Positions 33,747 through 35,468 of a stretch of 64,000 nt of DNA are shown here, in pieces. A model generated the notes under the pieces. The model was not told the DNA's origin and did not search any database. It saw only the letters and a list, made by a program, of their open reading frames with translations. Position 1 is the stretch's first letter. Each line of letters opens with the position of its first letter. The stretch lies in contig NZ_JACAEH010000007.1 in the NCBI RefSeq assembly GCF_013388945.1, forward strand, positions 1 to 64,000, read 5' to 3'. This DNA is from Nitrososphaera sp. (lineage in GTDB: Archaea; Thermoproteota; Nitrososphaeria; Nitrososphaerales; Nitrososphaeraceae). Position numbers and translations under genes: made by a program.

Positions 33747-33783
33747 CAAGATTTTTATCTATACTGCAACATGTGTCCGGTAC

Positions 33784-35157
33784 ATGGCCGGGATTGTCGC
33801 CATATACAGCCACGGGACCGAGTCCAACAAGGCAGTGGTCTACCTGCTTGCGCACGCCATGAGGATGCTCCAGCACAGGGGCAAGGCACACTGGAAGATG
33901 ATGGTGGGAAACGGCTCTGCCGGCGCGGAAGGCTCGCTTCCCTCCGACGACGCGATTTTAAAGCTGGCGCACAGGGAAAAGCTGCACGGCGTCTGCGGCC
34001 TCGGCTACCTTTCGAAAAGGTCGCCGCCGTTTTCAAGCATGAACACGGTCCAGGCCGCGTTTGACGGATTTTTCGTCGACACGGAACGTCTGCACCTGCA
34101 CCCATACGTCGGCACGGCAAAGGACTCTGACTCGCTTTACAAGATTTACCACATCTTTACCACTCTTCTGAAAAAAAACCCCGAAAGGGCCGCAGAGTTT
34201 CTCGACCGGCACCTACGCGGCAACTTGGTGATAAAACTCGGCGACGAGATATACGCGTACAGGGACAGCACCGGCTTCAAGCCGCTTGTGACTGCCGTCA
34301 GGCGCGACGGGATGCTTTCGATAATCGCCTCTGAAAACTCGCTCCGCACGTCGCTTGACCTAGAGTTTGCAGACGTCAAGCCGGGCCAGCTGGTGATGGC
34401 AAGCCGGGACGAAGGGCTGCAGGTGATAGCGACAAGCCCCGGCGCAAAGCTGATGATGGACCCGTTCGAGTTCATCCGCGAGTCAAACGTGGTGGCAACC
34501 CTTGGCGGCAAGAGCATCTACTCGATACGAAAGGACATCGGCAGGGCGCAGGCAGACTTTCTCTCGCTTGACCTGAAGGTGAGCGACCTTGACTCTGCGT
34601 ATGCCGAGCCCGACTATACACGCCCGATGACGCTTGGCTTTTCCCTTGCATACCGGTCGCATTTCCGCTCGTTTGAGGTGGGAGAAGGCGTCATAAAGGA
34701 CAGGTACGACGACTCGGACAACATGATAGACTTTTCAGAGCTTGACAGCAAGAACAAGCTCCTGACGACCGGCAGGTCCCTGAAATTTGTCATGCAACCG
34801 CTGGTGCAGGGAAAAAAGATTGCCACCGTTCAGGGCACTATACAGACAAGCGCGACTGCCAGGGAGACGATATACTACCTGCGCAACGCCGGCGCAAGGC
34901 GCATAGACGTGATTGTAAGTTACGTGCCAACAGTCGACGGCCGGCAGGTGGGGCTTTACACACACAACCGCGATCTTATCGCAAACAAGTACGTGGGGGA
35001 GGTCTCGTCGATAAACGAGCTGAACCTGAACATCGCAAAGGAGCTTGGCGCCGACAACGTCTACTACAACTCGCCTTCGGTGCTTGCAAGGGGCATAGGG
35101 GTGCCGGAGCACAGCCTCTGGTTCCCCGAGTGGGTGAGGTTCCTGGACTACAAATGA
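33784..35157 (+). CDS. PurF-like protein lacking catalytic residues
   Basis: A 457-residue protein with the overall plan of amidophosphoribosyltransferase: an N-terminal Ntn glutaminase domain and a C-terminal phosphoribosyltransferase domain. The glutaminase nucleophile is missing (MAGIVAIYSHG in place of MCGI). The PRPP loop, normally a DDSxVRGTT type, reads IATVQGTIQTSATARETIYY. The rest still follows PurF order (RNAGARRIDVIVSYVPTV, GLYTHNRDLIANKYVGEVSS). It is therefore probably a pseudo-enzyme or a protein with a new activity. ATG 33784 is the first family-like start. The next gene overlaps by four bases. Confidence 0.8.
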   Translation: MAGIVAIYSHGTESNKAVVYLLAHAMRMLQHRGKAHWKMMVGNGSAGAEGSLPSDDAILKLAHREKLHGVCGLGYLSKRSPPFSSMNTVQAAFDGFFVDTERLHLHPYVGTAKDSDSLYKIYHIFTTLLKKNPERAAEFLDRHLRGNLVIKLGDEIYAYRDSTGFKPLVTAVRRDGMLSIIASENSLRTSLDLEFADVKPGQLVMASRDEGLQVIATSPGAKLMMDPFEFIRESNVVATLGGKSIYSIRKDIGRAQADFLSLDLKVSDLDSAYAEPDYTRPMTLGFSLAYRSHFRSFEVGEGVIKDRYDDSDNMIDFSELDSKNKLLTTGRSLKFVMQPLVQGKKIATVQGTIQTSATARETIYYLRNAGARRIDVIVSYVPTVDGRQVGLYTHNRDLIANKYVGEVSSINELNLNIAKELGADNVYYNSPSVLARGIGVPEHSLWFPEWVRFLDYK

Positions 35158-35468
35158 AAAGCGACCTTGAGCCTGGCCGCACAGGCGGGCCTCCCGCAAA
35201 ATCGTTACAGCTCTTGCACAATCAGATGAAGATGGAAGGGGTCTTGATAACAAAGATGGAGATGCGGCAGTACGTCGAGCGCAGGGACGAGCGCCTCGGC
35301 GACTACTCGCTTTTGACGGTGGTCGTGGAAACTGACCGGGGCGCAGTAGAAATGAAGTACGACGAGGGATTCCGCGGCCCCGACGCTCTCGAGTCTGCCG
35401 CAAAACTGCTACTGCAGTACGCCGGCCTTGCCGCGCTCATCAACAGGGCGCTCATAGAGCTGTCATAG
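35154..35468 (+). CDS. Hypothetical protein coupled to the PurF-like gene
   Basis: A 104-residue protein starting MKSDLEPGRTGGPP, with a strand-rich middle (LGDYSLLTVVVETDRGAVEMKY) and a C-terminal helix (LLLQYAGLAALINRALIEL). ATG 35154 overlaps the upstream TGA as ATGA, so translation is coupled and the protein is a candidate partner of the PurF-like protein. No family was recognised. Its end overlaps the converging HAD gene by six bases. Confidence 0.65.
   Translation: MKSDLEPGRTGGPPAKSLQLLHNQMKMEGVLITKMEMRQYVERRDERLGDYSLLTVVVETDRGAVEMKYDEGFRGPDALESAAKLLLQYAGLAALINRALIELS

Follow-up and report, generated by a model that had tools for sequence, protein, structure and literature searches.

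The window (the whole 64,000-nucleotide stretch of Nitrososphaera sp. DNA analysed here) carries at positions 33784-35157 a paralogue of PurF which is specific to the Nitrososphaeraceae, groups as a single clade with a very long stem and now evolves under strong constraint. Judged by all residues known to be required, the encoded protein is not a glutamine-using PRPP amidotransferase: Cys1, RYST, NGT and the Asp-Asp that binds PRPP have each been replaced, as have the four Fe-S cysteines. The open reading frame is intact (457 aa and a stop codon), and the elements of the locus are as follows.

33752..33759, forward strand: TATA-box-like element TTTTTATC of the PurF-like gene, directly past the leuD stop codon; putative promoter
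33784..35157, forward strand: PurF-like paralogue of 457 aa, with replacements at the Fe-S site and at the two PurF active sites
33784..34458, forward strand: Ntn-type glutaminase-like domain, residues 1-225, with LSKR as the RYST equivalent and DGF as the NGT equivalent
33787..33789, forward strand: Ala2, corresponding to the nucleophile Cys1 of PurF, from 57 distinct orthologues and structural superposition
34459..35154, forward strand: phosphoribosyltransferase-like domain, residues 226-457, with 69 of the 107 invariant positions
34603..34632, forward strand: AEPDYTRPMT, residues 274-283, in place of PVPDSARPAA
34696..34740, forward strand: flexible loop KDRYDDSDNMIDFSE, residues 305-319, acidic and conserved, where the true PurF has KDRYSKKGSMRSFIE; pLDDT mostly below 50
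34831..34857, forward strand: QGTIQTSAT, residues 350-358, where the true PurF has its PRPP loop DDSIVRGTS; QGTIQT invariant in 57/57
35154..35468, forward strand: gene of a 104-aa protein with a beta3-alpha2 model; ATGA overlap; a usual, non-obligate neighbour

The relationship to PurF extends over the whole chain. TIGR01134 matched residues 15-439 at 58.8 bits, short of its 350-bit cut-off (which many archaeal true PurFs also fall just under), and the order of PurF segments was preserved from end to end. All solved relatives that were found are PurF structures, and the predicted structure contains the two-domain Ntn and phosphoribosyltransferase (PRTase) fold of PurF (Foldseek E 4e-24). The AF2 model, which is of moderate quality (pTM 0.68) with low confidence in the acidic loop, aligned with B. 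subtilis PurF (1gph) over 388 residues at a VIA Z of 24.8 (model 2-452 on chain 1-444), placing Ala2 on Cys1. The two-domain fold, segment order, length, and the QHRG and F-K/R-P elements are common to this protein and PurF (TIGR01134; 1gph, 1ao0, 1ecb, 6czf, 6lbp), and 35 of the 131 PurF-invariant columns are retained at ~27% identity to cellular PurF.

On the other hand, the residues on which PurF chemistry depends have been exchanged. The true PurF of the same genome (G000:C28:77081-78445), which adjoins purL on the same contig ~42 kb from the PurF-like gene, has the Cys, RYST, NGT, DDSIVRGTS and all four Fe-S Cys. Relative to it, the PurF-like protein shows i) Ala for the nucleophile Cys; ii) LSKR for RYST and DGF for NGT; iii) AEPDYTRPMT for PVPDSARPAA; iv) KDRYDDSDNMIDFSE for KDRYSKKGSMRSFIE; and v) QGTIQTSATA for the PRPP loop DDSIVRGTSS. 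Moreover the four Fe-S Cys positions (B. subtilis/archaeal type) were occupied by Asp, Arg, Trp and a gap in 32/32 sequences. These results bear out the earlier note on this DNA, which had described an intact gene with PurF segments in order, the Cys changed to Ala and the PRPP loop replaced; the comparison with a true PurF of the same genome, which it had proposed, shows that this is not the sole PurF. The note had also raised a Cys start just upstream. Such a hidden start was looked for and rejected: an in-frame Cys does lie four codons 5' of the Met (TATCVRYM-AGIV), but by chance, as orthologue stop codons rule out a start there, standing directly before the start codon in six orthologues (L006, L009, L012-L015) and four codons before it in another (L003).

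Conservation within the family was strong. Among 57 distinct full-length orthologues, position 2 was Ala in 47 and Gly in 10 and never Cys, QGTIQT was invariant and the acidic loop was nearly so. While these sequences diverge to ~48% identity, 107 of the 457 positions were invariant, of which the PRTase-like half contains 69 (p 0.001), and the median dN/dS was 0.07 (pairs with dS <1.3). At 39 positions which are invariant in true PurF, the PurF-like family is fixed to another residue. PurF-invariant columns were over-represented among the conserved columns (39/88 versus 61/317, Fisher p 3e-6) with the columns that keep the PurF residue excluded; these column tests assume independent columns, and the sequences have common ancestry. 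The fixed replacements fall at AEPDYxRPM, KDRYDDxDxMIDxSE, QGTIQTxxT, PTxDGRQxGLYT and LWFPEW and are densest in the phosphoribosyltransferase-like half; in PurF, the loops that carry them line the PRPP/nucleotide pocket. Thus, by column conservation, the active sites are rewritten, not relaxed or eroded, since the columns that are invariant in PurF are conserved here too, even without those that keep the PurF residue. Decay to a pseudogene was ruled out by the intact ORF in all full-length members and by the dN/dS. The earlier note had likewise argued against decay, a judgement which holds from the intact gene, the dN/dS of 0.07 and the fixation in a single clade of Ala/Gly (57/57) and QGTIQT (57/57), but not from the coupling to the 104-aa gene, as that partner is non-obligate. 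The locus is a clean example of a metabolic enzyme that was duplicated, had its two active sites rewritten and has since kept them unchanged.

The Nitrososphaeraceae are abundant ammonia oxidisers of soil, and the PurF-like gene is lineage-defining and strictly retained in them. It was found in 20/20 genomes of the family examined at completeness of at least 90% (19 full length; an N-terminal fragment in G019), and true PurF was present in 19 of the 20. It was absent from 24/24 genomes of other families of the order, where the matches were PurF genes or those of PurF', a second, Cys-less PurF cluster of Crenarchaeota adjoining purF (Brown et al. 2011, PMC3261824). When the family profile was run against 398 genomes from across the phylum, full-scoring members were confined to the same family. 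A search of GTDB species contigs gave 54 loci, almost all of which bear titles of Nitrososphaeraceae (Nitrososphaera and Nitrosocosmicus among them) or Nitrososphaerales; the few with other titles (e.g. Nitrosopumilus, 'bacterium' MAGs) showed 49-63% identity and are probably mislabelled bins. Annotation may label the gene a purine enzyme, and no mention of such a paralogue in Nitrososphaera was found in the open-access literature.

The neighbours of the gene vary across the family. leuCD is the upstream neighbour in the window's genus alone, which rules it out as a family-wide operon partner; in most other genera, divergent GTPase, kae1-like and bud32-like genes (named by sequence motifs) are found upstream. 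This latter flank was seen at L048, L049, L082, L085, L087, L091, L098, L100 and L112; in the window's genus its place is taken by leuCD together with a proteasome beta gene. The PurF-like gene probably has its own promoter, as the TATA-like TTTTTATC follows closely after the leuD stop and a similar element, AAGATTTTTATC or of TTTAAAT type, stands 5' of the start codon in most orthologues. Downstream, the ATGA coupling to a 104-residue ORF (35154-35468) described in the earlier note is real, and 54 of the 62 distinct members have the 104-aa gene after the PurF-like gene, a few of the remainder ending at a contig edge. A convergent NT5C/HAD-family gene (PF06941; 35463-36017) overlaps the end of the 104-aa gene and adjoins the pair in many genera.

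Nevertheless, the 104-aa gene is not an obligate partner, a reading ruled out by its separate occurrence and by its decay or absence beside intact PurF-like genes. One copy is present in each of 22 Nitrosopumilaceae genomes, and at the two loci opened there it had no PurF-like neighbour; at both (L207 7324-7653; L208 7604-7942) it lies about one gene upstream of a thrS-like gene. Within the Nitrososphaeraceae, G032 retains only a remnant of it broken by stop codons (E 1e-8), a weaker trace of the same kind is present in the G002/G004/G006/G010 group (E 0.002, one member), and no copy was found in G027; in all of these the PurF-like gene is intact. Such remnants downstream of intact PurF-like genes were located at L077-L079 and L089. 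From its presence in Nitrosopumilaceae and its remnants or absence beside intact PurF-like genes, the 104-aa gene is most likely older than the PurF-like gene and not required by it; otherwise near-universal in the family, it was apparently lost independently. Thus neither the position beside leuCD nor the coupling, both pointed out in the earlier note, is supported as a guide to function. The model of the 104-aa protein is confident (pLDDT 91; beta3-alpha2), but structure searches gave nothing beyond background level (Foldseek E 0.1 and VIA Z 3.9 at best) and there was no match in Pfam or NCBIfam. Its family is shared by Nitrososphaeraceae and Nitrosopumilaceae and is absent from the other sampled families of the order.

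A pocket that is both rewritten and invariant argues for a bound ligand, whether the protein is a regulator or a new enzyme. The earlier note had offered these two roles, regulatory pseudoenzyme or new chemistry; the intact, constrained paralogue would fit either. We favour a sensing or regulatory role, giving about an even chance to a ligand-binding regulatory pseudoenzyme, its inertness being read from residues. The old PRPP/nucleotide pocket would now accommodate a different ligand, which is probably a nucleotide or a phosphorylated metabolite, with the mobile acidic loop (of low confidence in the model) closing over it; less surely, the protein may be a ligand-sensing pseudoenzyme that regulates nitrogen or nucleotide metabolism in trans. 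Action in trans is suggested by the fact that no purine gene is linked and that leuCD and the 104-aa neighbour are dispensable. Two features expected of a regulatory pseudoenzyme were observed, purifying selection (dN/dS 0.07) and a complete true PurF paralogue in the same genome. Regulatory pseudoenzymes of PRPP metabolism also have a precedent in the PRPS pseudoenzymes (PRPSAP), which are thought to assemble with their active paralogue (PMC13252144). These are inactive paralogues in PRPP metabolism beside an active one, as the PurF-like protein may be, a likeness of working only; they derive from another enzyme (PRPP synthetase), are eukaryotic and are reported to keep their interfaces. A regulator docking on PurF would be expected to retain the subunit interfaces of PurF.

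A new enzyme on the PurF scaffold is a less probable but serious alternative: the rewritten PRTase pocket would catalyse some other reaction, and the Ntn-like half would have been kept for structure or for substrate binding. The invariant charged and polar residues (D306, R307, Y308, D309, D310, D312, D316, E319, Q350, Q354, E361, D385, R387 and Q388) would suit catalysis, and the 39 PurF-invariant positions fixed to a new residue and the single, strictly retained copy in nearly every genome of the family are consistent with it; but no reaction, substrate or linked pathway is indicated, and the neighbours vary among genera. Were it true, the PurF scaffold would have been rebuilt into a new active site that is neither glutaminase nor PRPP transferase, and soil ammonia-oxidising archaea alone would carry, as a fixed trait, an enzyme with new chemistry.

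It is rather improbable that the PurF-like protein is instead a subunit of the true PurF oligomer, i.e., a hetero-oligomeric modulator as PRPSAP is for PRPP synthetase. The same fold across both domains, the presence of true PurF in 19/20 near-complete genomes of the family and the assembly proposed for PRPS pseudoenzymes (PMC13252144) would all suit such a subunit, while the ~27% identity to cellular PurF, the stem of ~3 changes per site and the lack of linkage to purF weigh against it.

The origin of the gene bears on a further possibility, that it is a divergent orthologue of crenarchaeal PurF' (PMC3261824). In our trees the PurF-like proteins formed one clade with a stem of ~3 changes per site, beside thaumarchaeal PurF and apart from PurF', and the split from PurF' had an SH-aLRT of 99 in a 97-row tree, with a like placement in a careful tree of 46 rows. 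Constraining the PurF-like group with PurF' cost 15 log units with an AU p of 0.098, so a long-branch error in the placement is possible. Diagnostic residues leaned towards thaumarchaeal PurF over PurF' by 9 to 6 (16 to 7 at a looser threshold), without significance, and matches were at E ~1e-25 to 1e-36 to PurF versus 1e-5 to 1e-8 to PurF'. The two groups do resemble each other, both being Cys-less, with Ala or another non-nucleophile at the N-terminus and the same glutaminase-site losses, and both co-occurring with true PurF. However, the PRPP loop of PurF' still has DDS in our alignment, its Fe-S cysteines are nearly always present, and it is described as adjoining purF, whereas the PurF-like protein has neither residue set and its gene neighbours leuCD or the GTPase/kae1 cluster. 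Orthology to PurF' is therefore disfavoured, and we regard it as quite unlikely. The archaeal PurF duplications noted in 2011 and left unexplained (PMC3261824) are extended to a more extreme and apparently separate case.

Finally, an ammonia-dependent PRPP aminotransferase would suit an ammonia oxidiser, and E. coli PurF that lacks Cys1 is still able to use ammonia (cited in PMC3261824), but the Asp pair and Arg of the PRPP loop (DDSIVRG) are replaced in 57/57 and a complete PurF exists in the genome, making this the least credible of the readings.

Other PurF duplicates also lack the nucleophile Cys. Mlab_0150 of Methanocorpusculum labreanum is a PurF duplicate with the nucleophile Cys changed to Ser (PMC3261824); it resembles the PurF-like protein in having lost that residue, but is a recent single-species duplicate near its own PurF, unlike the PurF-like family. 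Across the Thermoproteota, and in some families of Nitrososphaerales too, PurF' paralogues commonly stand beside purF (L052-L056, L152-L201). Their PRPP loop is variable (DDSVVRG, DDSMVTG, DDSLLTG), which suggests more than one functional state among PurF'.
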